The notes beneath the pieces were generated by a model. It was not told where the DNA came from. It saw only the letters and a list, made by a program, of their open reading frames with translations, and searched no databases. This document shows, piece after piece, positions 23,530-55,215 of a stretch of 64,000 nucleotides of DNA. The stretch spans positions 62,001 to 126,000 of the forward strand of contig NZ_JASZYF010000004.1 of assembly GCF_030317115.1 (NCBI RefSeq), in the 5' to 3' direction. The first letter of the stretch is position 1, and each line of letters starts with the position of its first letter. A program made the translations under genes and the position numbers. The stretch is from Variovorax gracilis (GTDB taxonomy: Bacteria; Pseudomonadota; Gammaproteobacteria; Burkholderiales; Burkholderiaceae_C).

Positions 23530-24477
23530 TCAGGCCACCGAATCGCGCTGCAGCGCCGCCGCGAGGCGGCTGCTGGTGAACGCTTCGGAACGCCCGAGCG
23601 TGGTCGTGGCATGAACCGGGGACGCCGCCGTCGCACCTTGCGTCACGCGCAGCGCCCAGTCGCACACCACCTCCATGAAGGTCTGCTGCGAAGCCATCGA
23701 GGTAAGGCTGTGATCGATGTTGCCGATGAACTGGTACTCGACGCGCTGCATGAAGGGCTCATTCGCGAAGGGCCCCAGCTGGTCGCGGCGGCGATCGGTC
23801 ACGTGCATGGTGCCGGTGTAGAGCATCAGCACCGAGACGTTGCGTTCCGCGATCTGCTTCATCGAGCGTCGGAAAAACGCGGCCACGACTTTCGGCGATT
23901 CTGGCTCATAGATGCTCGGCGCAGCCGCGGCAGCGGCCTTGGAGGAGAACTTGCGCTGCAGCCAGCGGATCGTCTTGCCGATCACCGCCGGGTTGGTCGG
24001 AACCGCCAGCGCGCGGCGAATGGCGCGCTCCACGAGCGCACGCCGGCTGGGGAAGGCGTGACCGTCAAACATCAGAAGGCCCACCACCCGCGAATCGACC
24101 ACGGTGAGCGACATGCCGTTGACCGCGCCCGAGCACAACCCGATCACGATGAAGCGGCGAACGCCGAGCATGGTCTGGATCAGGTTCATGGCTGCCTGCA
24201 TGTCCAGCACCGCCTGCGTCAGGAAGTTCTCGGAGCCGGCGGCCGGGCCGCTGTCGCCCAGGCCGGCGAGGTCGAGGCGGACCGAACTGATACCCCTTGC
24301 CGCCATCTGGCGCGCGAGCTTGACATTGATGCGCCGCGGCCCGATCCGGTAGTTGGCGCCCATGTTGAGCATGAGGCAGGCCACGGGCGCCAGCGGACCC
24401 TCGGCCGGAGTCGTGATGATGCCGATCAGCGACCCGTCGGGCCCGAACTGAACGGGTGTCTCCTTGTAGTCACTCAT
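23530..24477 (-). CDS. Alpha/beta hydrolase with a cysteine nucleophile elbow, last gene of the PKS-NRPS cluster
   Basis: 315 aa from MSDYKETPV. Alpha/beta-hydrolase fold with an oxyanion strand (LMLNMGANYRIGP), GLGDSGP and an elbow VIGLCSGAVNG, where the nucleophile position (G-x-Nuc-x-G) is Cys rather than Ser. A late NIDHSLTS segment offers the catalytic His. It resembles the hydrolases associated with exosortase A loci (from memory). The start overlaps the previous gene by 8 nt, so it is part of the cluster. Likely roles are product release or proofreading in trans, since no thioesterase domain exists in the megaenzymes; this is inference. The upstream in-frame extension overlaps the neighbour and is discarded. 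Confidence 0.82.
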   Translation of the reverse strand: MSDYKETPVQFGPDGSLIGIITTPAEGPLAPVACLMLNMGANYRIGPRRINVKLARQMAARGISSVRLDLAGLGDSGPAAGSENFLTQAVLDMQAAMNLIQTMLGVRRFIVIGLCSGAVNGMSLTVVDSRVVGLLMFDGHAFPSRRALVERAIRRALAVPTNPAVIGKTIRWLQRKFSSKAAAAAAPSIYEPESPKVVAAFFRRSMKQIAERNVSVLMLYTGTMHVTDRRRDQLGPFANEPFMQRVEYQFIGNIDHSLTSMASQQTFMEVVCDWALRVTQGATAASPVHATTTLGRSEAFTSSRLAAALQRDSVA

Positions 24478-25270
24478 GTACTTCCGCCAGCAATCGTTGC
24501 AGCGCCTCGGTGGGGACCATCGCGTTGTTGGGATGCGGATCGGACGTCCAGACCAAGGGATGCCGGAATGACGAGATCCGCAGGGGCATTTGTCGCGCGC
24601 TTTCCCTTTCCGCCCACTGATGGGCTGACTCGTCATCGGCGAGGACCACCGTCTCGTGCAGCGCGGTGAGCTGCAGGGATTCCGGTGTCAGCGCACGCAA
24701 TTGCTGGCGCATCAGCGGGGACATGCCAAAGCCGAAGAGCTCCTCGGTAAAGGCATCCGGGTCCCGGGCCAACTGGCGACGCCAGCCGGGGTCGGGCACG
24801 CAGAAGGAGCGTTCCAGTGCATCCACGTGACAGACGCGCAGCGCCTCCATGTAGCGCGCGCCGTCCACGATCGGATCCCACAGGATCAGCCGCATCGGAT
24901 CGCATCGCCCGCTCTTGGCTGCCGTCACCGCCAGCGCTGCGCCCAGGCGGGAGCCGATCCAGAAGATGCGCCGGCCGCCGGCACGGCGCCGCAGTTCCTC
25001 ATGCGCAGTGCAGACATCGCGCCGCCAGCCTTCGAGATCGGCGTCGGTGTCCTCGCCGGGCGAGTCGCCGCTGCCGTGGTAGTCGAAGCGCAACACGGCC
25101 ACGCCGGCGCGTGCGAGACGGTCGGACACCACGCGGAACAGCCGGTGTGCACGCACGGCCTCCTGACCCAGGGGCATGCATATCAGCACGGCGAGGTCGC
25201 CCTCGCGCTCGGGCGCGTGGAAGACCCCGAACAGCTGCCTGGAGGGCGGACCAAAGTGCATCGGTGTCAT
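24470..25270 (-). CDS. Alpha/beta hydrolase-like protein without a serine elbow, PKS-NRPS cluster
   Basis: 266 aa from MTPMHFGPPSR. An alpha/beta-hydrolase core is seen in LICMPLGQEAVRAHRLFR, VLRFDYHGSGDSPGE and LILWDPIVDG. The elbow reads WIGSRLGAAL; in the G-x-Nuc-x-G frame the nucleophile position is Arg. This resembles the second exosortase A-associated hydrolase subgroup (GLRLGA in my recollection), whose members may not be active esterases. It is coupled at both ends (4-nt overlap with the PPTase gene, 8-nt overlap with the next hydrolase). It may pair with the next protein as a heteromeric release or editing factor. Function unproven. Confidence 0.8.
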   Translation of the reverse strand: MTPMHFGPPSRQLFGVFHAPEREGDLAVLICMPLGQEAVRAHRLFRVVSDRLARAGVAVLRFDYHGSGDSPGEDTDADLEGWRRDVCTAHEELRRRAGGRRIFWIGSRLGAALAVTAAKSGRCDPMRLILWDPIVDGARYMEALRVCHVDALERSFCVPDPGWRRQLARDPDAFTEELFGFGMSPLMRQQLRALTPESLQLTALHETVVLADDESAHQWAERESARQMPLRISSFRHPLVWTSDPHPNNAMVPTEALQRLLAEVHE

Positions 25271-25986
25271 GCGAACATCTCGTTGTTGACCCGCAGCCTG
25301 CTGGGGACCGGGATCGCCTCGCGGTCCAGCACGTGCGCCACGGCGCACAGGGCACCCTGGACGCCGAGGAAAGAGCTTAGCGTGAGGTACACGATGCCGT
25401 CTTCGGAGTCGATTTTCACCTCGCGCACGTTCGGCAACACGCCCACTTCGAAGCTGCGGGTGTCCACTGACAGCCCCAGGCCTGTGGCCTTGAGGCAGGC
25501 TTCCTTGCGGGTCCAGCAGCAGAGGAAGCCGCGGTCGCGCTCCTCGGGCGGCAGCGCGGCCAGCGCGCGCCGCTCGGCCGCACTGAAGTGGTTGTCAGCG
25601 AGCGCCCAGGCATCGGGCATCGGCCGCAGCAACTCGATGTCGACGCCCACTTCGGCGTTCTCGCAAACGGCGATCAGGGCCAGCGACTGACTGTGGCTGA
25701 GGTTGAAGCGCAGCCCGATGTCCTCGGCCAGCGTCGGCTTGCCGAACGGGCCCAGCGCGAAATCCAACATGGAGGCGGGTATGCCGCATTGCGCGGAAAG
25801 CGTCTCGCGCAGGGCGGCATGGGCGGCAACGAAACGGTTGCGATCGCGTTTGAAGACGAAGCGCCTGGCTCGTTCCCACTCCGCTTCCGACAGGGCCGCG
25901 ACCGCTTGCGGCGCCGGGGTGGAATCGAGGTCGACCTGCCACAGGCGCCAGTGAGACGAGGAAGCGGGAAGTTGCGAGATCGTCAT
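25267..25986 (-). CDS. Sfp-type 4'-phosphopantetheinyl transferase
   Basis: 239 aa from MTISQLPASS at 25986. It transfers phosphopantetheine from CoA to the carrier-protein serines of the adjacent PKS and NRPS. Family motifs are seen: RFNLSHSQSLALIA, GVDIELL (magnesium ligands) and the WTRKEACLKATGLGL signature. Length is typical of two-lobed Sfp enzymes. The ATG follows the NRPS stop by 7 nt, and its stop overlaps the next gene (ATGA), so it belongs to the cluster and activates its four carrier domains. The upstream extension of the same frame runs into the NRPS gene and is rejected. Confidence 0.95.
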   Translation of the reverse strand: MTISQLPASSSHWRLWQVDLDSTPAPQAVAALSEAEWERARRFVFKRDRNRFVAAHAALRETLSAQCGIPASMLDFALGPFGKPTLAEDIGLRFNLSHSQSLALIAVCENAEVGVDIELLRPMPDAWALADNHFSAAERRALAALPPEERDRGFLCCWTRKEACLKATGLGLSVDTRSFEVGVLPNVREVKIDSEDGIVYLTLSSFLGVQGALCAVAHVLDREAIPVPSRLRVNNEMFA

Positions 25987-25993
25987 GGCGCGC

Positions 25994-28900
25994 TCAGGTT
26001 CTGCGACCCCAGCCCGAGAACACCCGGCGCAACAGGCCAGGTCGATTGCTCGGCATTGCGGCCTGCACGTCGTCTTCGGCGGCCGCCGGAGCGGACACGA
26101 GTTGCGCAAGGGTTTCGAACACGTAGCGGCGCGGCTGCACGCGAAAGCCGAACGTCTGCGCCGCCTGTTCGATCACGCCCATCACGCGCAGCGAATCGCC
26201 CCCGAGATCGAAGAAATTGTCGCGGGCGCGAATGTCATCGACATCGATGCCGAGGGCACTGGCCCAGATCTGGGCGAGGCGCGCCTGTTCGGGCGGCAGG
26301 AGCGCCATGGGCGCCGCCGGGGCCTGGTTCTTCTGTGCAAGCGTGGTGCGTGCCCAACCCGAGGAGAGATCCGCGAGTGTGGCGTTCGGATGGTTGGCGA
26401 CTGCAGCGAGCGTGTCCAGGAAGGCCTGCCGCAGCGCCAACGCCGTTTCGCGGGCATAGAGGGAGCTGTTGTAGACGAATGCGCCCTCCACTCCGGACGG
26501 GCGGTCGAGCAGCCACAGGCCGAGGTTGTCTGTCAGCCCCTTTTGGAGCAAGGGGATCATCTCGTGCATGAGCGGCCCCCACTTCCTTTGGCGCTCGTGC
26601 GTATCCTGGAAGGAGAAGGCGGCCTGGTATCCCCCGGCGCGCCGTTGCTCCGGACTGGCCTGCTCCATCACCTGCTCGAACGGCAGGTCCTGGTGTGCCA
26701 GCACGCCGATCAACTCCTGCTTGACTCCGAGGGCGAAGTCGAGGAATCGGAGCTCCTTCTTCGCGTCGAGCATCACCGGCGCCAGCCCGATGAAGAGGCC
26801 CATGATGTGTTCGAGCTCGGGAATCATCCGGCCGCGCACCGGCATGCCGAGTGAAACGGCGGGTTGCCCTACTGCGCCGGAGACGGTTGCCGCAAAGGCG
26901 GCCATGAGAAGCATGTTGAGCGTGACCCGATGCTGCTGGCCTATGCCGCGCAACTTTTCTGCCAGCGCGCCATCGATGCGGACCTCCTCGTGCATGCCCT
27001 GGCCCGGGACGCCGGGCAGCGCCGTCCTGTCGCGGGGCACGGGTGCCAGGACGGGCGCCTGGAGGAAGCGCTGCTTCCAGTAGGCGCGCTGCTTCTCTGC
27101 TTCCGAGCCTTCAAGCCACTGGCCATACCACTGCGCGTAGTCGCCATAGCTGATCGCCAGCTTCGGAAGAGGCTGCTTGCCGCTGTCGAGCAGCGCCTCG
27201 TATCCGGCGGCCATCTCGCGGTAGAGGATGTCGAAGGAATAGCCGTCCCAGATCAGGTGGTGCGCCATGAACAGGAAAACGTGCTCCCGGTCGCCCAGTT
27301 GATACAGGGCGCAGCGGAACAGCGGAGCAGGCGCGGCATGAATCGGCTCGTCGACGATGGCCTGCATCCGCCGAAGAAGCTCTGCTTCGCGGGCCTCGGC
27401 GGGTATCTCGCGCAAGTCTTCGAAGGGAAGGGTGAACTCGAGATCATCCGCGATGAACTGGACCCAGCCCGAGCCGTCGGGTGCCGGCACGATCGAGGTC
27501 CTCAGGACATCCTGGCGCCGCACGATTTCGCGAAAGGCCTGCTCGAACTTCGGTCGGTCCATGGGGCCGGTCAGGCGGTGTGCCGACGGCGTGTTGAAGG
27601 CCGTGTTCTCGGGATGCAGGTCTTCGGCAAAACGCATGCGCCGCTGCTCGAGGGTGATGGGGGCGGTAGTGCGGTCCAGCCGCCGCGGAATGACCACCGG
27701 CGCGCCGGCGTTCTGCGCCCGCGCGATCTCGATCGCCAGGCGCTCGGCCGTCGGCGCTTCGAACAGCTTGCTCAGAGGCATCTGGATGCCGAGCGTCTTG
27801 TTGAGCTGTGTGGTCAGGCGTGCCGCGAGCAGCGAATGCCCTCCCATCTCGAAGAAATCATCCAGGACGCTCATGGCGGGCAGATGCAGCAGCTCTTCCA
27901 TGGCGCTCAGCACGGTGCGTTCGTGTTCGCTGCGCGGTGCCAGCCGCGCCCTGGTTTCGCCTGAGGCGGCGCCGGCGTGAGGCGATGGCAGCGACTTGCG
28001 GTCCACCTTCCCGTTGGGCAGCATCGGCAGTGCAGGCAGGGCGATGACATGCTGCGGCAGCATGTAGTGCGGCAGCCGTGCGCGCAGATGCTCGCCCATG
28101 GCGGTCCGGTCGAGCACGGCGCCGGGTGTCATGGCGAGATAGGCCACGAGGCGCACGTCGCCCGGCTGGTCCTCGCGCGTGACGACGACGCTGCTCCCGA
28201 CGCCCGGCACCTCGTTGCACGACGCTTCGATCTCGCCGAGTTCGATCCGGTAGCCGCGCACCTTGACCTGGAAGTCGAAACGGCCCATGTGTTCCAGCAG
28301 GCCGTCGTTGCCCCAGCGGCCGCGATCGCCCGTGCGGTACATCCGGGCGCCCGCTGCACCCCACGGATCGGGGATGAAGCGGTCGGCCGTCAGCTCGGGG
28401 CGTTCCAGGTAGCCCAGGGTCACGCCGGTGCCGCCGATGACGATCTCGCCCGGCACGCCGATGGGGCAGCGCTGGTTGCGGGAGTCGACGATCCACACGG
28501 TCGTGTTGGCGATGGGTTGCCCGATCGAAACGCCGCGCTTCGCGAACCGCGTCGGCTCGACGCGCCAGAGCGTCGACCAGATCGTCGTTTCGGTCGGCCC
28601 GTACATGTTCCAGAGTTCGCCGCAGCGCTCCAGCAGCGAATGGGCCAGATGCGCGGGCAGGCCCTCGCCGCCGACCAGTGCCTTGAATTGGGGCGAGCCG
28701 GTCCACTGCGCATCGAGCAGCAGGCGCCAGCCGCCCGGCGTCGCCTGCATCATGGTCGCGCCGCTTTCTTCGATCAGCCTGCGCAGCGCATTGCCGTCCA
28801 TGGTCGTGTCGCGCGACACCAGGATCACTTCGGCGCCGACCGTCAGCGGCAACATCAGTTCGAGCACGGCGATGTCGAACGACAGCGTGGTCACGGCGGC

Positions 28901-30931
28901 CAGGCGATCGTCGGCGGTGATGCCGGGCGCTTCGCACATGCTCTGCAGGAAGTTCGCGACCGCGCCGTGCGGCACGCACACGCCCTTGGGTTTGCCGGTC
29001 GATCCCGAGGTGTAGATGACGTAGGCGGCATCGCCCGGCTGGGCGTCCTGCGCAGAGCGTGCGAGCGGCGTGGCGGGCTTGGTTGGCCATGCGGTGTCAC
29101 TGTCGAGCGCGAACACGCGCTGCGCCGCGTCGGGGCACCAGTTCGCGGGGGCCGCTTCGACCGTCGACGCGGTCAGCAGCAGGCCCAGCTGGGCGTCTTC
29201 GGCGTAGTAGTCGAGACGCGCCTGCGGGAAGGCCGGGTCGAGCGGGACGTAGGCGGCGCCCGCCTTGAGCACGGCCAGCAAGGCGACCATCATGTCCGCA
29301 TTGCGCTCCAGGCACAGGCCCACGCGCTGGCCGCGGCCCACGCCGCGCTCGCGAAGGGCGTGCGCCAGGCGGTTCGATTGTTCGTCGAGCTCGCGGTAGC
29401 TCCAGCGGCGGTCTCCGTCGCGCAGGGCGATCCGATCCGGACTGAGCGCCGCGCGTTCGACGAAACCGGCGTGCATCAGCTGCTCCCCGACGAGCGGCGT
29501 CGGCGCCGGCTGCAGCGCCTCGATCGCCCGCGCCTCTGCGTCGGAAAGCACATTGAGCTGGCCGACGGGCTGATTCGGATCGGAGACGGCGGCGCGAAGG
29601 AGGCACTCGTACATGCCGAGCCAGCGCTTGATCGTGGCATCGTCGTACAGGTCGGCGTTGTATTGCGCCTCGATCTGCATGCCCTTGGCGACCGGCGCCA
29701 TGTTGACGAACAGCTCGAAGTTCTCGTAGCGGCGCGCGATCGAGCTCTGTTCGGATTCGAGTCCGGGGAAGGTGCTCGTCGCCAGTGCGCCGCTGTCGAG
29801 GTTGAACAGCACGTTCACGAGCGGAAGGCGGCTCGGGTCTCGCGGCACCGGCAGCTTCCTGAGCAGTGCGCCGTAGGTCAGCGTCTGGTGCTCGAAGGCA
29901 TCGAGCAGCACGCCGCCCGACTGGCGCGCCAGCTGGTCGAAGGATGTCTGTGCATCGACCGCCAGGCGGATCGGCAGCAGGTTCACGCAGTGGCCCACGA
30001 GTTCCGGCATGTCGCTCGGCATCTGGCCTGCGGCGGCGATGCCGATCACGAGGTCATCCTGAGCCGTCAGCCGGTGGAGCGTTGCGGCAAAGGCGCTGAA
30101 CATCGTCGCGAAAAGGCTGGTGCCCATCCCCGAGCCGACCTTGCGCAGGCCGTCGATCAGGGACTGGTCGAGCACGTGGTCGATGCGGCGCGAGCTGAAA
30201 GTGCGCACGGCGGGCCGCGGATGGTCGAGCGGCAGCTCCAGCACCGGGAGGCTGCCTCCGGCGTACCGCGAGAGCCAGTAGTCGATATGCGTCTGCATGT
30301 CGGGCCTCGACGCTTCGTCGGCCTCCCACGCGGCGTAGTCGGAGTAGCGCGCGGCCGGGTCGAGCGCCGGGCCGGCGCCGGTCTGCTCCGCATAGAGCAG
30401 GCCGAGATCCCGGCTGATGACGCCCCAGGACCAGCCGTCGCAGATCGCGTGGTGCGCGGTCATCACCAGCATGTGGTCCGTCGGCGAGAGCTGGTACAGG
30501 GCGGCCCGGAAGAGCGGGCCCTTCTCCAGTAGGAAGGGGTCCTGCACGGCGGCCAGCCCGTCTTCCTCCAGCCGGCGCTGCTGGGCCGCCGCGTCGAGAT
30601 GCCGCAGGTCATGCTGGCGCATCTGCATCGGGGCGGCCTCGCCGATCAGCAACTGGGTGCCATCGGGCGAGATCGTCGAGCGCAGGGATTCGTGGCGTGC
30701 GACCAGCTGGTCCAGCGCCGCGCCCAGGGCGGGCGTGTCCAGCCTGCCCCTGAGGCGAAGTCGCAGCGACTCGTTGTAGGCCAGCGATGCCTCGGGGCTC
30801 AGCCGGTCGCCGAGCCAGACTTCGCGCTGCGCTTCGGTCGTCGCGACGATGCGCTCGATCAGACCAGCGGCGAACGGGTCGAACTCGTCCACGGCGCTGT
30901 CGTCGGAGGGGGTGAGGACGGCTGCGGTCAT
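25994..30931 (-). CDS. Non-ribosomal peptide synthetase, C-A-T-C-T
   Basis: 1645 aa from MTAAVLTPS. Domain order: C1 (HHAICDG near residue 162), A (YTSGSTGKPKG near 641; NMYGPTE), T1 (GGHSL near 1031), C2 (HHLIWDG near 1226), T2 (GGDSL near 1578), and a short basic tail. The specificity-pocket residues read by eye as D-I-L-Q-L-G-M-I-W, a glycine-type code. The second module has no A domain and the protein has no TE, so T2 must be loaded in trans, serve as a transfer station, or be vestigial. Its start overlaps the PKS-NRPS stop (ATGA). C1 is expected to accept the beta-amino acyl chain from the upstream aminotransferase module and join it to glycine. Confidence 0.93.
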   Translation of the reverse strand: MTAAVLTPSDDSAVDEFDPFAAGLIERIVATTEAQREVWLGDRLSPEASLAYNESLRLRLRGRLDTPALGAALDQLVARHESLRSTISPDGTQLLIGEAAPMQMRQHDLRHLDAAAQQRRLEEDGLAAVQDPFLLEKGPLFRAALYQLSPTDHMLVMTAHHAICDGWSWGVISRDLGLLYAEQTGAGPALDPAARYSDYAAWEADEASRPDMQTHIDYWLSRYAGGSLPVLELPLDHPRPAVRTFSSRRIDHVLDQSLIDGLRKVGSGMGTSLFATMFSAFAATLHRLTAQDDLVIGIAAAGQMPSDMPELVGHCVNLLPIRLAVDAQTSFDQLARQSGGVLLDAFEHQTLTYGALLRKLPVPRDPSRLPLVNVLFNLDSGALATSTFPGLESEQSSIARRYENFELFVNMAPVAKGMQIEAQYNADLYDDATIKRWLGMYECLLRAAVSDPNQPVGQLNVLSDAEARAIEALQPAPTPLVGEQLMHAGFVERAALSPDRIALRDGDRRWSYRELDEQSNRLAHALRERGVGRGQRVGLCLERNADMMVALLAVLKAGAAYVPLDPAFPQARLDYYAEDAQLGLLLTASTVEAAPANWCPDAAQRVFALDSDTAWPTKPATPLARSAQDAQPGDAAYVIYTSGSTGKPKGVCVPHGAVANFLQSMCEAPGITADDRLAAVTTLSFDIAVLELMLPLTVGAEVILVSRDTTMDGNALRRLIEESGATMMQATPGGWRLLLDAQWTGSPQFKALVGGEGLPAHLAHSLLERCGELWNMYGPTETTIWSTLWRVEPTRFAKRGVSIGQPIANTTVWIVDSRNQRCPIGVPGEIVIGGTGVTLGYLERPELTADRFIPDPWGAAGARMYRTGDRGRWGNDGLLEHMGRFDFQVKVRGYRIELGEIEASCNEVPGVGSSVVVTREDQPGDVRLVAYLAMTPGAVLDRTAMGEHLRARLPHYMLPQHVIALPALPMLPNGKVDRKSLPSPHAGAASGETRARLAPRSEHERTVLSAMEELLHLPAMSVLDDFFEMGGHSLLAARLTTQLNKTLGIQMPLSKLFEAPTAERLAIEIARAQNAGAPVVIPRRLDRTTAPITLEQRRMRFAEDLHPENTAFNTPSAHRLTGPMDRPKFEQAFREIVRRQDVLRTSIVPAPDGSGWVQFIADDLEFTLPFEDLREIPAEAREAELLRRMQAIVDEPIHAAPAPLFRCALYQLGDREHVFLFMAHHLIWDGYSFDILYREMAAGYEALLDSGKQPLPKLAISYGDYAQWYGQWLEGSEAEKQRAYWKQRFLQAPVLAPVPRDRTALPGVPGQGMHEEVRIDGALAEKLRGIGQQHRVTLNMLLMAAFAATVSGAVGQPAVSLGMPVRGRMIPELEHIMGLFIGLAPVMLDAKKELRFLDFALGVKQELIGVLAHQDLPFEQVMEQASPEQRRAGGYQAAFSFQDTHERQRKWGPLMHEMIPLLQKGLTDNLGLWLLDRPSGVEGAFVYNSSLYARETALALRQAFLDTLAAVANHPNATLADLSSGWARTTLAQKNQAPAAPMALLPPEQARLAQIWASALGIDVDDIRARDNFFDLGGDSLRVMGVIEQAAQTFGFRVQPRRYVFETLAQLVSAPAAAEDDVQAAMPSNRPGLLRRVFSGWGRRT

Positions 30932-33900
30932 GCTTGGAACTTCGTGAATTTGCCTTGGGCGGTTGGATCGGGAACGAACCATGCGGGCTGGCCGTCCTTG
31001 TCACGACCGAGCCGCGCATTCGGCACGGGCGGATTGGACGCGTCGAAGGCCGGCTTCGGCGCCGCGCGGCGCGGCAGCAGTTCGGCTTCCTGCATCTCGG
31101 CAATCGATTCCTTGAAGGCGGACTTGATGGTCGCGATGTCCTGCTGCGTGTGCGCGGTCGTCATGAAGCAGGGGAAGTTGTCCAGGATGTGCACGCCGCG
31201 GCTGCGCATCATGGCGAACAGCAGGTCCTGCAGCGGGTGGTCTTCCAGCCAGCTCACGCGCCATAGCGACGAGAAGTAGCGGATCTCGACCGGCGCGCCG
31301 ACCTCGCGGCAGAAGGCCGACAGCTCGTCGGCCATGGCCGCGGTGTGCAGGTTCAGCTGCGTCTGCAGCTTGTTGTTGTCCTTCTTCAGGAATTCAAGGG
31401 CGGCCTTGGATGCGGCGAGCGCCAGCGGATGCCGCACGAAGGTGCCGGCGAAATAGGTTACGCCCACGGTGGGCACCGAGTCGTCGCCGTACTGCCATGG
31501 GCCGCCGTCGAGCGCGTCCATGTAGGTGCGCTTGCCGGCGATCACGCCGACCGGGAAGCCGCCGCCGAGCACCTTGCCGTAGGTCGCGAGATCGGCGCGG
31601 ATGCCGAACACCGCCTGCGCGCCGCCCAGGTCGCAGCGGAAGCCGGTGATGACCTCGTCGAAGATCAGGCAGGTTTCGGACTTCTCCGTGATCGCGCGCA
31701 CCTCGCGCAGGAACTCGCGCGGCTGGAAGTCGGGCCGGCGGCTCTGCACCGGCTCGACCAGCACCGCGGCCAGGTCGTCGGCGTTGGCGCGAATGAATTC
31801 CAGCGCTTCCGGCGTGCCGTAGTCGAGCACCCGGACGTCGCCGAACATGCCCTGCAGAACGCCGGGCGCCGCCGACATGCCCTTGGCATTGCGGCCGGCG
31901 CGCACCAGCACTTCGTCGAAGGTCCCGTGGTAGGAACCGGTGAACAGCACGACCGTGCTGCGGCCGGTGACGGTGCGGGCGATGCGCAGCGCAGCCATCA
32001 CGGCCTCGGAGCCAGTGTTGCAAAGACCCGCGCGGTCGAAGCCCGTGAGGTCGCACAGCAATTGCGTGACGTCGGCCGCGAGCGGATGCTGCGGGCCGAT
32101 CTCGTAGCCGAGGTCGAGCTGCTTGCGTACCGCGTCGTTGATGAAATCCGGCGTCCAGCCGAAGAGGTTCATGCCGAAGCCGTTGAGCGTGTCGACGTAT
32201 TCGTTGCCGTCGATGTCCCAGAGCCGCGAGCCCTTGGAGCGATCGATGACGATCTGGTAGGTGATCTCCTTGGTCGCGGGGCGGAAGCCGTTGACCACGC
32301 GCGGGTCGGCCATGTGCGGGCGGTTGCGCTCGGTGAAGGCCTTGCTGCTGCGCGTGCGTTCCACGTAGCGGCGCATGAAGGCCGCCAGGCGCGCCTTCTG
32401 CCGCTCGGTCGGCTCCTTGCTCTGCGTGTGGATTCGCGCGATGGCGCCGAAGGCCTTCTTGACGTCGTACTTCTGCAGGGGCGCGGTCGGCTCCTCGGCA
32501 GCAGCCGGCGTGGGGGAAATGGACGCCGTGGCCGCGGCGGTGGCCATGGGCGTGGGTTGCTCCGCCACCGGTGCCGGCAGCGCAGGGCTGACCGGAACCA
32601 ACGGCGCCGCCGACAGCAATGCGAGCTGCTGTTGCATCAATTGCATCTGCTGCGCGATGACCTGCTGCATCAGGGTGCCGTTGCCGGCGGCCAAGCCGGC
32701 CACGGGCTGCATCGCCGGCATGGCGGGCATCGCGATGGGAGCTGCCTGTTGCGGCACGGCGGCCGCTGCGGGCACCGCCACAGGTGCCGCGACCGCTGCC
32801 ACCGGGTCGGGGGGCAGCGTGGCATCCAGGAACTCCGCCAGCGCGTCGAAGCTGCGATAGCTTTCCATCAACTGGCGGAAGGTGAGATTGACCTTGAAGT
32901 TCTTCTTGACCTGGAGCGCGGCCTGCGTGAGCGTGAGCGAGTCGAGCCCGATCTCGACGAAGGGCGCGGCGCCTTCGACGTCGGCCATGTCGACGCCGGA
33001 CAGGTTCTCGAACAGTTCGCGCAGACGCGTGACGAGGGATGCACGGCGCGCGGCGGGCGGCGCGGATGTGGCGACAGCAGCGACAGTCATTGTCAACTCC
33101 GGAATCGATGTGGGAAGGGAGACGGAAGAAGCAGAAGGGACGGAAGCGTCGAGAGCTGGCGCAGCAGCGGAAGCAGCCGGCACGCTGACCGGCTCGGGCA
33201 CGGCCGACGCGGCGGAAGCCGTCGCCATCTCGACCCAGAAGCGCTTGCGTTCGAAGGGATAGGTCGGCAGGCGCACGCGATGCTTGCGCTCGCGCGGGTC
33301 GAGTGCGCCGAGATCGATCTCGACGCCCTGCGCCCAGAGCCGCCCGGCGGCGAGCCGCCATGCGACGCTTTCGCCTTGCGCCGGGTCCGGCAGCAGCGAC
33401 GCGGCGGGGGCGGGCACTGCCTTCGTCGCGTGCTGGCGCACCAGCGTCGCGAGCGTGTTGCGAGGGCCGATCTCGATGAAGAGCGGATGCGCGAGCTGGG
33501 CCAGCACTTCGCGCACGGCGGGCGAGAAGCGCACGGTTTCGCGCAGGTGCCGTGCCCAGTAGTGCGGGTCGGTCGCCTCCTCGTCCGTCAGCAGGCGGCC
33601 CGTGAGCGTCGAATAGATCGGCAGGCTGGGCGTGGCGAGCGCTGTCTGGCGCACCAGCGCCTCGAAGGGGGCGACGGCCGCATCCATCATGGCGGAGTGG
33701 AAGGCGTGCGAGGTCTGCAGCGTCTTCGCGACGATGCCCTTGGCCTCCAGCGCGGCGCGCAGGCTCTCGATCGCGTCGCTCGGACCGGCGGCGACACAGA
33801 CGGCCGGACCGTTGTCGGCTGCCAGCGAAATGTCTTCGGGCAGGAGCGGCAGCAGCTCGGAGGCCGCGAGGCGCACCGACAGCATCGTGCCGGCGGGCAG

Positions 33901-36900
33901 GGCCTGCATCAGTGCGCCGCGCTGCGCCACGAGCCGCGCCGCGTCTTCGAGGCGCATCACGCCGGCCAGCACGGCAGCGGCGAATTCGCCCACGCTGTGG
34001 CCGATCATGGCCGCCGGCGTCACCTGCAGCGACATGAGCTGGCGCGCGAGCGAGTATTCGAGCGCGAAGGTGGCCGGCTGCGTCACCGACGTGGGGGTGA
34101 GCGCCGCGGCATCGTCCGAGAACATGCGTTCGCGGAGATCGAAGCCCAGCACGCCGTCGAAGGCGTGCAGGCAGTCGTCGAAGGCGGCGCGGAAGACGGC
34201 ATCGCCCGCGTAGAGCGTGCGGCCCATGCCGGCGTATTGCGCGCCCTGGCCCGGGAACATGAAGACGGGTTGCGGCACCCAGGCGCTCACCGAGCCGCCG
34301 GCGCGCGCAGCCGAGTCGGCGGTGCGCAGTGCGGCGACGGCCCCGTCGAAGGACTCGGCCACCACGCAGGCCCGATGCGCGAACTGCTTGCGGCCGACGC
34401 GCAGCGTGTGGGCGACGTCGGCCAGCGATGCATCGCGATGCATGTCGAGGTGATCGGCCAGCCGGGTCGCCGCGGCGGCCAGCGCTGCCGGCGATCGGGC
34501 CGACAGGGTCAGCAACTTCGGGCCGGTCGCGGGTTCGGAGGGCGCGCGCAGTGGCGCTTCCTCGATGATGACGTGCGCATTCGTGCCGCCGACACCGAAG
34601 CTGCTGACACCCGCGCGCCGCGGCGTGGCCTCGCGCGGCCAGGGGCGCAGCTGGTGATTGACCCGGAAGGGCGAGGCGTCGAAATCGATGGCCGGATTCG
34701 GCGATTCGTAATGCAGGCTGGCGGGAATCGCCTCGGCGTGCATCGAGAGGGCGGCCTTGATGAGGCCGGCCGCGCCGGCGGCCGTGACCATGTGGCCGAC
34801 ATTGCTCTTCAGCGAACCGATGGTGCAGAAGCCGGTATCGGCGGTGTGCGCTGCATAGGCCCGGGTGAGGCCCTCGACTTCGATCGGGTCGCCCATCGGC
34901 GTGGCCGTGCCGTGGGTCTCGACATACGAAATGCTGCGGGCCTCGACGCCGGCCGATGCCAGCGCGGCCTCGATCACGGCGGCCTGTCCGTCCACGCTCG
35001 GCGCGGTGAAGCTGGCCTTGGCGCCGCCGTCGTTGTTGATCGCCGCGCCACGCAGCACGGCATAGATGGTGTCGCCGTCCGCGATCGCGTCGGACAGGCG
35101 CTTGAGCAGCACGACCGTCGCGCCGTCGCTGAAGACCGTGCCCTTGGCCTTGGCGTCGAAGCTGCGCGTATGGCCGTCAGGCGACAGCATCGAGCCTTCG
35201 TTGTAGAGGTAGCCGCTGCGTGGCGGGCAGGTGACCGACGCGCCGCCCGCGAGCGCCATGCGGCACTGGCCGGTGCGCAGTGCATGGAAGGCCTGCGCCA
35301 CCGCCACCAGCGAGGTGGAGCAGGCGGTGTGCACGCTCACGGCGGGGCCAGTCAGGCTCAGCTTGTTCGCCACGCGGGTGGTGATGTAGTCCTTCTCGTT
35401 GCCGAGCATCACCTGGAAGTCGCCGACCATGTCGATCAGGTCCGGGTGTGCCGCCACATGGCGCTGGAAGTAGGTCGCGTTGTACATGCCGCCGTACACG
35501 CCCACAGGGCCGGGCGCCTGGTCGGGCACGTAGCCGCCGCGTTCGAGGCACTCCCAGCAGATCTCGAGGAACACGCGGTGCTGCGGGTCCATCAGTTCCG
35601 CTTCCTTCGGGTTGATGCCGAAGAAGGCCGCGTCGAACTGCTCGATGTCGTCGATCACGCCGCGTGCGCGCACGTAGGAGGGGTCGGCGCGCAAGGCGGC
35701 GCTGACGCCGGCGTCCAGCGTCGCATCGTCGAAGAAGGTGATCGACTCTCGGCCCGCCATCAGGTTGTCCCAGAACTGCTCGACGTCCGCGGCGCCCGGG
35801 AAGCGGCCGGCCATGGCGATCAGTGCCACCGGTTCCATGTCGTGCGTCGCTTGCGGCGCGGGCCTGGCGGCCTCGCGCGGCGCCATGGCGGTCTCGCTGT
35901 CCTGCATGCCGGCGGCCAGGGCCGCGGGCGTGGGCTGGCGGAAGAACAGGTTGGTCGACAGGCGGCGTTCGCTGCCGCGCTGGAGGTCCTTCAGCACCTT
36001 GAGCACCAGCAGCGAATCGCCGCCGAGGTCGAAGAAGTTGTCGTTGCGGCCGACCTGGTCGATGCCCAGGGCGCGCGCGAAGGCTGCACACACCGTGCGT
36101 TCTGCGTCGTCGCGCGCTTCCTCGAAGGTCTGCGCGAGCTCGGGCCGTTGCCTCGGGGGCTCGGGCAGCGCACGGCGGTCGAGCTTGCCGTTGGTCGTGA
36201 CCGGCAACTGCTCGAGCCACACCTGCGCCGCGGGGAGCATCGCTTCGGGCAGGCGCTCGGCGAGGTGCTGGCGCAGGGCCGTCCACGGCACTTCGGCGCC
36301 ACGCGCCACCAGGTAGGCCACCAGCCGGAGCCGGCCGGCCGCGTCGGCACGGGCGATGACCGCGCAGGACTTGATGCCCGGGTGCGCGAGCAGCGCGGCT
36401 TCGACTTCGCCGGTCTCGATGCGGTGGCCGCGGATCTTGACCTGCCCGTCGATGCGGCCGATGTATTCGATGGTGCCGTCGGGCAGCCAGCGCGCCTGGT
36501 CGCCGGTGCGGTAGAGGCGCTCGTCAGGTCCGCCGAAGGGGTCGCGCACGAAGCGCTCCGCGCTCAGGTCGGGCCGCTGCAGGTAGCCGCGTGCCAGGCC
36601 GCGTCCGCCGATGCAGAGTTCGCCGACGAGGCCGGCGGGCAGCATTGCCATCGTCGGACTCAGGACGCGCAGCGCCGTGTCGTTGATGGGCAGCCCGATC
36701 GGCACCGAGCGGGCGTCGGCCGGCAGGTCGCGCGGAATGCGGTGCGTGGCCGCGAAGGTCGTGCATTCGGTCGGCCCGTAGCCGTTGATCAGCGTGAGGG
36801 CAGGCAGGGCGGCCATCGCGCGGCGCACGTGGGGCACCGACAGCGCCTCGCCGCCGGTGAGCAACTGGCGCAGGCCCGCCAGTTGCGCGGGATCGTCGTC

Positions 36901-38301
36901 GACCACCGCATTGAAGAGCGCGGCCGTGAGCCATGCAGTCTTGACCGAGTGCTGGGCGATGGTGCGCGCCAGCCCGGCGCCGGTGGGCACCTGTTCGTCG
37001 TGGACCACGCAGATGCCGCCATTCAGCAGCGGGCCCCAGAGTTCGAGCGTGGAGGCATCGAAGCCCAGCGGCGCGGCGTGCAGCATGGCTTCGCCGGGCG
37101 GGAGTTCGACAAAGCGTGCGCCGACCACGAGGCGAAGGATCGAGCGATGGCAGATCTCGATGCCCTTCGGCGTGCCTGTCGAGCCCGAGGTGTACATCAC
37201 GTAGGCGACCGAGTCGCCGCTGGCCGGTGCGGGTGCGAGCGGTGCCGGCGAGGCGTCGTCGTCCCTCGACTCGTCGATCGACAGCAGCGCCCGTCCGGCG
37301 GGGACCAACTGGCGGTGGGCGGCCTGAGTCACGACCAGCACGGCATCGGAATGCGACAGCATGAACGCGATGCGTTCGGCCGGGAAGTCCGGCTGCACCG
37401 GAACGTAGACCGCGCCGGCCTTCAGGACGCCAAGCAGCACGACCACTGCCGCGCCCGACCGGTCGAGCATCACGCCCACTGCGTCTCCGGCGCGGACGCC
37501 GCGCGCTTGCAGCCTGCGCGCCATGCGCTCGGCCCGGTCGGCCAGTTCGCGGTAGCTCAGGGGGCCGTCCTCGCCGATCAGCGCGACGGCGTCGCCGCGT
37601 GCGGCGACCTGCCGGTCGAACATCGCTTGGACCGTGAGCGTCGGGTCGTAGTCGGTAGGCGGAACGTTCCAGACGTCCAGTTGCCGTTGCCGGTCGGATG
37701 CCGGCAGGGTGCGGATCTCGCGCAGCCTCGCCGTGGGCCGTTCCAGCAGATCGGATGCTGTATCTATGAGTGCGGCCAGCAGGCTTTCGACTGCTGCGCT
37801 TTCGAAGGCGGCGGCCGCGGCCGTCAGGTGGAGCGTGGCGCCGGCCGAAGCCGCGCCTAACTGAAGCACCGGGCCCGGGTCGCCGAAGGCGGGCGCGCCG
37901 TCGCGAAGCCACAGGGCAAAGGGTTGCGAATCGCCCGCCGCAACGGTGACAGCGTGGCGACGGGCCTGGTCGACATCCGAGAGCCAGCGGCCGGTGGTCG
38001 CGTCGCCGTCGCAATGGACTGCGACGCTGATCATCCCGGCGGGCGCCATGGACTCATGGAGCGCCACGGCCGTACTGCCCAGCCAGCGCGATTGCAGGAG
38101 GCACCACGCGGCGACGAAAAGCGTGTCCGGCAGCCATCCGGATGTCTGGGCTTCCTCCGACCATTTCGCGGCGAGGGTCGTGGGCAACGCGGCGCTCAGC
38201 GATTGACGGGCCTGCGGCGTGCTGCCGGACGGACGAACGAACAGGTCGATCAGCGAGAGCGCCGCTGCCTCGGGCAATGGTGGGGGAGGCTGTTGTTCCA
38301 T
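30928..38301 (-). CDS. Hybrid NRPS-PKS with aminotransferase: (C)-A-T-KS-AT-ACP-AMT
   Basis: 2457 aa. The first 200 residues look like a degenerate C-domain half without HHxxxDG. Then come A (YTSGSTGTPKG near 370, GYGPTE), T (GGDSL near 760), KS (TACSTS, Cys near 993; HGTAT, NVGH), AT (GHSVGE near 1434, with HAFH suggesting malonyl-CoA), ACP (GLDSL near 1785), an Ala/Pro linker with a Gln/Met stretch, and a GSA-type class III aminotransferase (SEAVMAALRIAR; PLP Lys in TYGKVLGGG near 2242). No KR or DH is present, so the AMT meets the beta-keto group, as in iturin-family synthases. The A-domain pocket reads D-A-L-W-L-G-G-T-F, an aliphatic-type code (tentative). GGAG lies 10 nt before the ATG. 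First gene of the cluster. Confidence 0.94.
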   Translation of the reverse strand: MEQQPPPPLPEAAALSLIDLFVRPSGSTPQARQSLSAALPTTLAAKWSEEAQTSGWLPDTLFVAAWCLLQSRWLGSTAVALHESMAPAGMISVAVHCDGDATTGRWLSDVDQARRHAVTVAAGDSQPFALWLRDGAPAFGDPGPVLQLGAASAGATLHLTAAAAAFESAAVESLLAALIDTASDLLERPTARLREIRTLPASDRQRQLDVWNVPPTDYDPTLTVQAMFDRQVAARGDAVALIGEDGPLSYRELADRAERMARRLQARGVRAGDAVGVMLDRSGAAVVVLLGVLKAGAVYVPVQPDFPAERIAFMLSHSDAVLVVTQAAHRQLVPAGRALLSIDESRDDDASPAPLAPAPASGDSVAYVMYTSGSTGTPKGIEICHRSILRLVVGARFVELPPGEAMLHAAPLGFDASTLELWGPLLNGGICVVHDEQVPTGAGLARTIAQHSVKTAWLTAALFNAVVDDDPAQLAGLRQLLTGGEALSVPHVRRAMAALPALTLINGYGPTECTTFAATHRIPRDLPADARSVPIGLPINDTALRVLSPTMAMLPAGLVGELCIGGRGLARGYLQRPDLSAERFVRDPFGGPDERLYRTGDQARWLPDGTIEYIGRIDGQVKIRGHRIETGEVEAALLAHPGIKSCAVIARADAAGRLRLVAYLVARGAEVPWTALRQHLAERLPEAMLPAAQVWLEQLPVTTNGKLDRRALPEPPRQRPELAQTFEEARDDAERTVCAAFARALGIDQVGRNDNFFDLGGDSLLVLKVLKDLQRGSERRLSTNLFFRQPTPAALAAGMQDSETAMAPREAARPAPQATHDMEPVALIAMAGRFPGAADVEQFWDNLMAGRESITFFDDATLDAGVSAALRADPSYVRARGVIDDIEQFDAAFFGINPKEAELMDPQHRVFLEICWECLERGGYVPDQAPGPVGVYGGMYNATYFQRHVAAHPDLIDMVGDFQVMLGNEKDYITTRVANKLSLTGPAVSVHTACSTSLVAVAQAFHALRTGQCRMALAGGASVTCPPRSGYLYNEGSMLSPDGHTRSFDAKAKGTVFSDGATVVLLKRLSDAIADGDTIYAVLRGAAINNDGGAKASFTAPSVDGQAAVIEAALASAGVEARSISYVETHGTATPMGDPIEVEGLTRAYAAHTADTGFCTIGSLKSNVGHMVTAAGAAGLIKAALSMHAEAIPASLHYESPNPAIDFDASPFRVNHQLRPWPREATPRRAGVSSFGVGGTNAHVIIEEAPLRAPSEPATGPKLLTLSARSPAALAAAATRLADHLDMHRDASLADVAHTLRVGRKQFAHRACVVAESFDGAVAALRTADSAARAGGSVSAWVPQPVFMFPGQGAQYAGMGRTLYAGDAVFRAAFDDCLHAFDGVLGFDLRERMFSDDAAALTPTSVTQPATFALEYSLARQLMSLQVTPAAMIGHSVGEFAAAVLAGVMRLEDAARLVAQRGALMQALPAGTMLSVRLAASELLPLLPEDISLAADNGPAVCVAAGPSDAIESLRAALEAKGIVAKTLQTSHAFHSAMMDAAVAPFEALVRQTALATPSLPIYSTLTGRLLTDEEATDPHYWARHLRETVRFSPAVREVLAQLAHPLFIEIGPRNTLATLVRQHATKAVPAPAASLLPDPAQGESVAWRLAAGRLWAQGVEIDLGALDPRERKHRVRLPTYPFERKRFWVEMATASAASAVPEPVSVPAASAAAPALDASVPSASSVSLPTSIPELTMTVAAVATSAPPAARRASLVTRLRELFENLSGVDMADVEGAAPFVEIGLDSLTLTQAALQVKKNFKVNLTFRQLMESYRSFDALAEFLDATLPPDPVAAVAAPVAVPAAAAVPQQAAPIAMPAMPAMQPVAGLAAGNGTLMQQVIAQQMQLMQQQLALLSAAPLVPVSPALPAPVAEQPTPMATAAATASISPTPAAAEEPTAPLQKYDVKKAFGAIARIHTQSKEPTERQKARLAAFMRRYVERTRSSKAFTERNRPHMADPRVVNGFRPATKEITYQIVIDRSKGSRLWDIDGNEYVDTLNGFGMNLFGWTPDFINDAVRKQLDLGYEIGPQHPLAADVTQLLCDLTGFDRAGLCNTGSEAVMAALRIARTVTGRSTVVLFTGSYHGTFDEVLVRAGRNAKGMSAAPGVLQGMFGDVRVLDYGTPEALEFIRANADDLAAVLVEPVQSRRPDFQPREFLREVRAITEKSETCLIFDEVITGFRCDLGGAQAVFGIRADLATYGKVLGGGFPVGVIAGKRTYMDALDGGPWQYGDDSVPTVGVTYFAGTFVRHPLALAASKAALEFLKKDNNKLQTQLNLHTAAMADELSAFCREVGAPVEIRYFSSLWRVSWLEDHPLQDLLFAMMRSRGVHILDNFPCFMTTAHTQQDIATIKSAFKESIAEMQEAELLPRRAAPKPAFDASNPPVPNARLGRDKDGQPAWFVPDPTAQGKFTKFQA

Positions 38302-53937: not shown

Positions 53938-54018
53938 CCGCTCTCTTCGGGGGGGCCATCGTGAAGACCGGATAAGTTTGAGGTGCGACCCACCAAACTT
54001 GTCTTGAAGGAAATCACG

Positions 54019-55215
54019 ATGACCAACCCAACTATGGCATTGGCCGAGCTCGCTGAGAAGGGAGCCGATGTCGACGTCCTGCGCCAGATGGTGCAGTTCA
54101 TGGCCCAACGCCTCATGGAACTCGATGTCGAAGGACGCTGTGGCGCCGCCTACGATGAGAAGAATCCCGAGCGCCTCAACAGCCGCAATGGCTACCGCGA
54201 GCGCACCTGGGACACCCGAGCCGGCAGTGTCGAGCTGAAGATTCCCAGGTTGCGCCAAGGCAGCTACTTCCCCGAGTTCCTCGAGCCTCGGCGCACCGCA
54301 GAGAAGGCGCTCACGGCCGTCATCCAGGAGGCCTACGTGCAAGGCATCTCCACCCGTTCGGTGGACGACCTGGTCAAGTCGCTTGGCATGAGCGGCGTCT
54401 CCAAGAGCCAGGTCAGCCGGTTGTGCGGGGAGCTCGACGAGCGCGTCAACGCCTTCCTTGGAAGGCAGATCGAGGGCGACTGGCCCTACCTGTGGATCGA
54501 TGCCACCTACGTGAAGACGCGCGAAGCCGGGCGCATCGTGAGCGTGGCCGTCATAGTGGCTGTCGGCGTGAACACCGACGGCCAGCGCGAGGTGCTGGGC
54601 TTGAAGGTCGGGGCCTCCGAGGCCGAGCCGTTCTGGACCGAGTTCCTGCGCAGCCTGAACCGCCGGGGCCTTCGCGGTGTGAAGCTTGTGATCAGCGACA
54701 GCCACGAGGGCATCAAGGCAGCGGCTGCGAAGGTGCTCAAGGCCACCTGGCAGCGTTGCCGGGTGCACTTCATGCGAAACGCTCTGGCGCACGCCGGCAA
54801 GACGCAGCGGCGCATGGTCTCGGCTGCCATCGGAACCGTGTTCGTTCAGGACTCGGCCGATGCAGCTCGAACGCAATGGCGATCTGTTGCCGATCAACTC
54901 CGAGACAAGTTCCCCAAGCTCGGCACCCTGATGGACGACGCGGAGAACGACGTGCTGGCCTTCATGACCTTCCCGCGAGCGCACTGGACGCAGATCTACA
55001 GCACAAACCCATTGGAGCGGCTGAACGCGGAGATCAAGCGGCGCACGAACGTCGTGGGCATCTTCCCCAACGACGCCTCGATCACGCGCCTTGTCGGAGC
55101 AATGATGCTCGAGCAGAACGACGAGTGGTCGCTCAACCGGCGCTACATGCAGTTGGAGGGCCTGCAGACCCTCAGCGATACTGCACCCACTCGGCTGTCC
55201 GCAGTGGCACGCTGA
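54019..55215 (+). CDS. IS256-family transposase (Mutator-like DDE)
   Basis: 398 aa from [16 protein letters not shown] lies 8 nt before the ATG. The DDE catalytic residues appear as [10 protein letters not shown] (Asp), [13 protein letters not shown] (Asp) and [16 protein letters not shown] (Glu), with the family C-(2)-H stretch [16 protein letters not shown]. Length is normal for IS256 transposases and no frameshift is seen, so the element is probably active. Confidence 0.96.

Follow-up and report, generated by a model that had tools for sequence, protein, structure and literature searches.

The aminotransferase (AMT) modules of the mycosubtilin and microcystin assembly lines work on a fatty or aromatic polyketide chain. 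We take microcystin McyE to carry a class III AMT between its ACP and a C domain, so that the acyl chain gains a beta-amine. Mycosubtilin MycA has an AMT of the same class and position and makes the same kind of chain, the enzyme acting on an ACP-bound beta-ketothioester, as set out in the parts of PMC3870968 that deal with it. Within Variovorax, the variochelin (var) line joins an amino acid to one PKS module to give a gamma-amino-beta-hydroxy acid; it differs from the locus reported here in having a KR, in using arginine and methylmalonate and in making a siderophore, and the sections of PMC10999976 on this line name no AMT. Vacidobactins, variobactins and variochelins, which comprise depsipeptides, a lipopeptide and siderophores, were considered as products and, from their descriptions, appear to be distinct (sections of PMC4598715 and PMC10999976). 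The closest architecture is that of Pedobacter heparinus C6XWU5, tabulated in 2013 as A-CP-KS-AT-CP-PLP1 with the prediction 'Nrp-Mal-Gly-Pk', which shares with our locus an identical domain order and a GSA-type aminotransferase; in the relevant pages of that survey the protein is only catalogued, with no isolated product for this order (PMC3870968).

The 64,000-nucleotide stretch of Variovorax gracilis DNA analysed here (the window), from a soil bacterium, holds an intact cluster of five PKS-NRPS genes on the minus strand at 23530-38301. Gene A (30928..38301) encodes a hybrid NRPS-PKS of 2457 aa, with an N-terminal region followed by A-T-KS-AT-ACP-AMT, and gene B (25994..30931) an NRPS with C-A-T-C-T; a 4'-phosphopantetheinyl transferase (PPTase, 25267..25986) and two proteins of alpha/beta-hydrolase fold, HydD (24470..25270) and HydE (23530..24477), complete the set. 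With the starts that we infer (30931 for gene B, and likewise for the PPTase), genes A and B overlap by 4 nt, gene B and the PPTase are 7 nt apart, the PPTase overlaps HydD by 4 nt and HydD overlaps HydE by 8 nt. The genes, their domain string and their close coupling had all been proposed in a first-pass annotation, and Pfam and the coordinates bear them out, as they do its claim that no KR or DH lies between KS-AT and the AMT: neither family is found in the gene A protein (Pfam, E<=0.001). Compared with seven relatives, dN/dS is 0.14-0.22 for gene A and does not exceed 0.46 in any of the five genes. No Rfam family at gathering score and no tRNA was found across the window.

The active-site motifs of gene A are intact. 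Its AT domain (33385..34266; GHSVG) is of the malonyl type, of which HAFH is presumably the mark, and the lysine of GKVLGGG, which we take to be the PLP-binding residue, is kept in the class III, GSA-type AMT (31183..32259; PF00202 at 1.3e-46) fused behind KS-AT-ACP. The KS (34705..35838) has intact Cys-His motifs (TACSTS, HGTAT), and the carrier domains T1 (35911..36096) and ACP (32827..33039, limits approximate) have GGDSL and LDSL. The valine-like code of A1 (36184..37620), DALWLGGTF, shows one I-to-L difference from DALWIGGTFK, which a portion of PMC12283262 lists with the most frequent codes for Leu/Ile/Val and sets beside domains that activate valine. Some 205 residues ahead of A1 are without a Pfam match, and a condensation-domain remnant was rejected there as a weak match only (E=0.22 in the window, 0.0004 in the relative L085).

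In gene B, C1 (29522..30856, HHAICDG), within which a mosaic breakpoint falls, is followed by A2 (28007..29458), whose DILQLGMIW agrees with the glycine code DILQLGMIWK (PMC12283262, in the part on codes), and by T2 (27707..27904, GGHSL, limits approximate). C2 (26333..27640, HHLIWDG) and T3 (26096..26281, GGDSL) then end the protein with no A domain after C2. Both HHxxxDG motifs of the gene B C domains and all three T-domain serine motifs of the cluster are thus intact. What a terminal C-T module lacking its own A domain might mean had been passed over in the earlier annotation. Two of the three A domains found in the genome at E<=1e-80 (38 of 76 first-look candidates scored) belong to the cluster, and a third A domain, with the glycine-like code DILQLGMVW, is kept in two relatives, L085 and L105.

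From these domains and codes the core is best predicted as 3,4-diamino-5-methylhexanoyl-glycine, in agreement with the earlier proposal, in which an amino-acyl starter gains one malonyl unit, its beta-keto group is aminated and glycine is added. A1 would load the valine-like starter and KS-AT-ACP would extend it by one malonyl unit; since KR and DH are absent, the beta-keto group would meet the AMT and be turned into a beta-amine, yielding a 3,4-diamino-5-methylhexanoyl thioester to which C1-A2-T2 would append glycine. The amino-acid starter, unlike the chains of mycosubtilin and microcystin, would thus place two amines on neighbouring carbons, and the cluster may provide a route to vicinal diamino acids, themselves rare units, that lends itself to genetic work. 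C2-T3 probably contributes one more unit, which may be a second glycine supplied in trans by A2, as the third A domain retained in the two relatives suggests. HydE, together with a nucleophile-less HydD, would then release the chain or hand it to an acceptor.

The earlier annotation listed these two proteins simply as hydrolases. Both do have the alpha/beta-hydrolase fold, but they are unequal: HydE, a probable release or transfer enzyme, has invariant Cys, Asp and His, the Cys being present in 57 of 57 rows, while HydD has Arg at the nucleophile position (56 of 57 rows) and is probably a pseudoenzyme. In this they resemble the exosortase A-associated hydrolases 1 and 2 (TIGR03100 and TIGR03101), which likewise form an adjacent pair with one Cys nucleophile and one Arg; HydE is hydr1-like and HydD hydr2-like. 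They differ in following a PKS-NRPS and in scoring far below the curated cut-offs (HydE 57.5 bits against 168.45 for TIGR03100, HydD 91.1 against 202.75 for TIGR03101). The same Cys/Arg signature occurs in four exosortase-type pairs, each including a TIGR03101 protein over cut-off, with the hydr1 partner taken to be the neighbouring frame. We propose that Cys in one partner and Arg in the other is family-defining for hydr1/hydr2.

The cluster had been thought to match no known order, and this does not hold. Seventy of the 80 best named loci, from Variovorax to Pedobacter, have the same domain order in one reading frame, and the order already stands in the 2013 table (PMC3870968, as far as its entries on this order go), so that a unique cluster is ruled out. 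Among the same-genus genomes sampled it is nearly universal (35 of 37), which makes its product worth seeking even if it is secreted. The ends vary: the Pedobacter relative L113 closes with C-A-T-TE where the window cluster has C-A-T-C-T and two hydrolases. What had seemed a MOX domain in a long Pedobacter A2 (L117) is actually a methyltransferase. Comparison of the A codes shows starter A domains to have been exchanged between family members, the codes varying by lineage; Val-like ones are among them, and some of the others we take to be Thr, Pro, Gly and Ser codes. Parts of gene B have also been exchanged among relatives.

It is the surroundings of the relatives that suggest a role. Of 68 related clusters, 28 have a priming sugar transferase (Bac_transf) no more than 25 kb away, against 1.74 expected by random placement, although these 28 are not independent, since 11 are V. 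paradoxus-type copies from one ancestor. Either Bac_transf or Wzz, the latter sought in all but 17 of the 67 genome entries, lies within this distance in 31 clusters, and neither in 37. A methyltransferase of TIGR04325, presumably a family of O-antigen loci, is within 25 kb in 15 of 51 clusters (0.55 expected). As a control, of 37 other NRPS loci listed for 34 of these genomes, 2 were near a priming sugar transferase, a comparison for which the Fisher test was set aside because most of these genomes had been picked for being linked. In several relatives polysaccharide genes directly follow the cluster on the same strand. In V. paradoxus VAI-C the last cluster gene is followed after 26 nt by a polysaccharide export gene, and then by an autokinase, a sugar transferase and others; in Luteibacter a GT2 and a polysaccharide deacetylase come after gene B, and in Ideonella and Mucilaginibacter the cluster and polysaccharide genes are operon-like. 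The linkage is repeated in Rhodanobacter, Dokdonella and Lysobacteraceae. Neither these loci nor the inequality of the hydrolase pair had been noticed in the first-pass annotation.

We therefore read the cluster as belonging to a widespread PKS-NRPS family. Its members would assemble a short pseudo-peptide whose most likely use is to acylate, and so decorate, a surface polysaccharide; we put the probability of this at roughly one in two. The acceptor in the relatives would be an amino sugar of the surrounding Wzx/Wzy-type polysaccharide; no acyltransferase to the sugar was identified. The window clade stands apart from such genes, probably after a move. The window cluster has a gpmA-like gene on one side and an RND pump on the other; tblastn with 23 seeds over the surrounding 32 kb gave no polysaccharide genes, none of the five Bac_transf matches of the genome is on the cluster contig, and no Bac_transf or Wzz lies near any member of the 14-row clade of the window in the AMT tree, so the role of this copy is read from its relatives. 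Two-component genes near the cluster were considered as PEP-CTERM regulators and rejected, the regulator falling below the PEP-CTERM cut-off and scoring best as GlrR (itself below cut-off). A bolder generalisation, which we hold tentatively and at slightly less than even odds, is that of an assembly-line class over Burkholderiales, Xanthomonadales and Bacteroidota dedicated to beta,gamma-diamino-acyl-glycine blocks for surface polysaccharides; as its starter A domains vary by lineage, domain swapping in such a class would lend variety to the chemistry of the cell coat. If the polysaccharide reading is true, multimodular natural-product machinery would serve to decorate polysaccharides, a role without precedent in the literature searched, which also contained neither a product nor any paper that places the family in EPS loci; what the hydr1/hydr2 pair does would then become testable.

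One might argue instead for an ordinary secreted diamino pseudo-peptide, such as an aminostatine-type protease inhibitor, an antibiotic or a signal. Foreign genes tend to collect in polysaccharide loci, which are variable, and nearness to them could reflect no more than a shared region. The isolation of the window clade fits this, as do the swapping of starter A domains and gene B parts, common to many natural-product lines, and the free isolation of vacidobactins, variobactins and variochelins from Variovorax (as described in sections of PMC4598715 and PMC10999976). The pump, of the Mdt multidrug type and a possible exporter, is the next gene and is found beside many copies, yet pump and cluster are arranged tail to tail, and at several copies (e.g. 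L040 and L074-L077) no pump adjoins the cluster. Against this reading stand the scarcity of other NRPS loci near priming sugar transferases, the recurrence of the linkage across so many lineages, and the likeness of HydD and HydE to an EPS-associated pair, and we consider the secreted molecule a serious but less probable reading, with odds of about two to one against it.

Vicinal diamines chelate copper, and with the glycine amide they might bind it or a similar metal, either free or on the polysaccharide. Some plasmid copies do have copper genes in the neighbourhood. In Variovorax sp. RA8 and WDL1 these encode a copper oxidase, a cupredoxin and copper-binding proteins, roughly 8 kb past the end of gene B; pSLIN02 of Spirosoma linguale carries a gene A (the stretch shown has no gene B) with DUF305 genes on one side and, on the other, a multicopper oxidase and two copper P-type ATPases. 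These are three plasmid records only, however, the two from Variovorax sharing much of their neighbourhood; no metal receptor or importer is among the flanking proteins scanned, and the RND pump is below the CusA/CzcA cut-off and scores much better as Mdt-type, all of which makes metal binding improbable. Least probable of all, in our judgement, is that the aminotransferase or the third module behaves differently and that the product is not the linear diamino-acyl-glycine but, for example, a gamma-amine lactam. The terminal C-T without its own A domain leaves room for this, and many Variovorax copies have other module-2 codes, e.g. DMPQWGLVW; against it, the motifs of the simple route are all intact, and a gene starting with C-A-T comes after gene A in most family loci examined.

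The five-gene PKS-NRPS cluster on the minus strand of the window (23530-38301) was borne out as the first-pass annotation had described it, in its genes, its domain strings (Pfam domains) and its joints. Gene A (A-T-KS-AT-ACP-AMT) and gene B (C-A-T-C-T) are followed by a phosphopantetheinyl transferase (PPTase) and two alpha/beta hydrolases, HydD (24470-25270) and HydE (23530-24477). From starts inferred at 38301, 30931, 25986, 25270 and 24477, genes A and B overlap by 4 nt, a gap of 7 nt separates gene B from the PPTase, and the PPTase overlaps HydD by 4 nt and HydD overlaps HydE by 8 nt. The active-site motifs were intact in all catalytic and carrier domains checked. Against seven relatives, gene A gave dN/dS ratios of 0.14-0.22 and gene B 0.33-0.44; the ranges for the smaller genes were 0.27-0.46 (PPTase), 0.13-0.21 (HydD) and 0.21-0.41 (HydE). 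Gene B (25994-30931) is a mosaic with a breakpoint within C1, its A2-T2-C2 part being unlike the nearest relative, L028: among 29 loci compared, residues 1 to ~310 match L028 at 92-94%, residues ~600-920 match L034/L035 at 85-89%, and beyond ~920 the best-scoring match is L036 (~54-72%). This mosaicism probably explains the higher dN/dS of gene B.

The domain order had also been claimed to match nothing known, and this did not hold. A-(T)-KS-AT-(ACP)-AMT lies within one reading frame in 70 of the best 80 named loci, and a 2013 table lists this order for Pedobacter heparinus (PMC3870968). Eight of the remaining ten loci begin or stop at a contig end near the AMT; in L101 and L102 the order was not seen within one frame. 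Among the same 80 loci, gene B is C-A-T-C-T in 33 and C-A-T in 27, the latter string being capped by a thioesterase in the Pedobacter locus L113 and in the metagenome-assembled L112. The L112 assembly is titled Bordetella parapertussis, yet it carries the cluster and adjoining polysaccharide genes, and its label may be wrong. Starter codes vary (DA[LF]WxGGTF type, 27/71; DVQFMAQV, 21/71), with others that we take to be Thr-, Ser-, Gly- and Pro-like. An extra A-domain frame of ~890 codons lies 11-17 kb from the AMT in Mucilaginibacter loci L123, L124, L126, L129, L130 and L134. The window's genome falls in the Variovorax group, the best named AMT match among those listed being Variovorax sp. 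J22P240 (99% identity over the AMT). Counting the window's own genome each time, 35 of 37 genomes of the same genus have a close AMT match (partial only in G023, missing from G022 and G032), as do 16 of 299 genomes of the wider family sample and 9 of 398 of the phylum sample.

The chief new result concerns the surroundings of the cluster, which in many relatives sits inside surface-polysaccharide loci. A priming sugar transferase (Bac_transf) lies within 25 kb of the cluster in 28 of 68 cluster rows, versus 1.74 expected by random placement, and Bac_transf or Wzz in 31 of 68. The 68 rows come from 67 genome entries, Wzz having been sought in 50 of them, and one genome was counted twice (G131 = G740), unlinked each time. 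As a control set, the other NRPS loci listed for 34 of these genomes had Bac_transf this close in 2 of 37 cases, both in one genus (G109, G303). A TIGR04325 methyltransferase, of a family associated with O-antigen loci, lies within 25 kb of 15 of 51 clusters (0.55 expected). In V. paradoxus VAI-C only 26 nt separate the last cluster gene from a polysaccharide export gene, which is followed on one strand by an autokinase, a sugar transferase, a GDP-L-fucose synthase, glycosyltransferases, a "polysaccharide biosynthesis protein" and some hypotheticals. In Ideonella oryzae a Bac_transf gene stands ahead of gene A, and GT2, WecG, Wzz, Wzy_C, Polysacc_synt_3 and more glycosyltransferases follow the PPTase. 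Five Pedobacter loci, unlinked by the strict count, have GT2-GT2-DegT genes just past the cluster. In Luteibacter L108, gene B is followed by genes for a GT2 and for a polysaccharide deacetylase; such a deacetylase could lay sugar amines bare for acylation. Our literature searches found no paper placing this cluster family in polysaccharide loci.

The window's copy is an exception to this setting. It is flanked by a gpmA-like and a MiaB-like gene, and by an Mdt-type RND pump that stands tail to tail with it; 23 polysaccharide-locus seeds gave no match in the 32 kb around the cluster, and no Bac_transf was found on its contig, the five matches of the genome all being on other contigs. A Mutator-family transposase (53983-55212) lies in a lower-G+C stretch. 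A tree of 67 AMT rows pairs the window clade (14 rows) with a V. paradoxus-type clade of 11 rows, all of them linked; the branch that joins these sister clades has modest support (85), and both fall within a larger group of 33 rows that has strong support and contains 15 linked rows. The linkage label requires 10 changes on this tree versus 22.5 in shuffles, a difference that near-copies alone could partly explain. The window clade probably became detached from an ancestral polysaccharide setting, although the change count is blind to gain versus loss. A secreted bioactive compound is a possible alternative, given that no polysaccharide link is seen in the window clade itself. A metal-binding role for the product is also possible, because copper genes lie near plasmid copies (L174, L177, L175): two Variovorax plasmids (sp. 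RA8, WDL1) carry copper-resistance genes ~8 kb past gene B, and in Spirosoma linguale pSLIN02 gene A is near copper genes including copper ATPases, with no gene B in the stretch shown.

The hydrolase pair would provide a release or transfer step. Structure models show an alpha/beta-hydrolase fold for both HydE and HydD (mean pLDDT 82 and 90). In alignments of 57 rows each, some being the same strain twice, HydE keeps Cys116, Asp139 and His257 in all rows, whereas HydD has Arg at the nucleophile position in 56 and none of its His positions reaches 90% conservation. Within NCBIfam they come closest to exosortase A-associated hydrolases 1 and 2, with which they share this Cys/Arg split, although their scores fall below the curated cut-offs. 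In the four loci aligned that have a TIGR03101 protein above cut-off (L165 and L167, also above it, were left out), the same positions hold Arg in that protein and Cys in the hydr1-like frame next to it. In genome G045, hydr2-like genes at ~264797 and ~422198 of contig C2 have Wzz and Bac_transf matches close by, and the PKS-NRPS is on a different contig, so the pair may serve polysaccharide loci independently.

The AT domain of gene A carries HAFH and is, we assume, malonyl-type. The chemistry of the assembly line can be inferred from the codes of the starter A domain (A1, DALWLGGTF) and the second (A2, DILQLGMIW). In PMC12283262, DILQLGMIWK is a glycine code, and DALWIGGTFK is among the commonest Leu/Ile/Val codes, set beside valine-activating domains. 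A valine starter, malonyl extension and amination would give a 3,4-diamino-5-methylhexanoyl thioester, because the Pfam domain search found no KR or DH in gene A, leaving the beta-keto group for amination; A2 would add glycine to this diamino-acyl chain. The terminal C-T pair of gene B has no A domain, and at E<=1e-80 the window's genome has one A domain outside the cluster and three in all. A third A domain is present, whole or partial, in L085, L105, L106 and L110, and missing from many other loci; in L085 and L105 it is part of the third module and carries a glycine-like code, and in L110 it is a partial Pfam match only. The pattern across loci looks as if this domain were in the course of loss, and it is plausible that the carrier domain of the terminal pair (T3) is loaded by A2.
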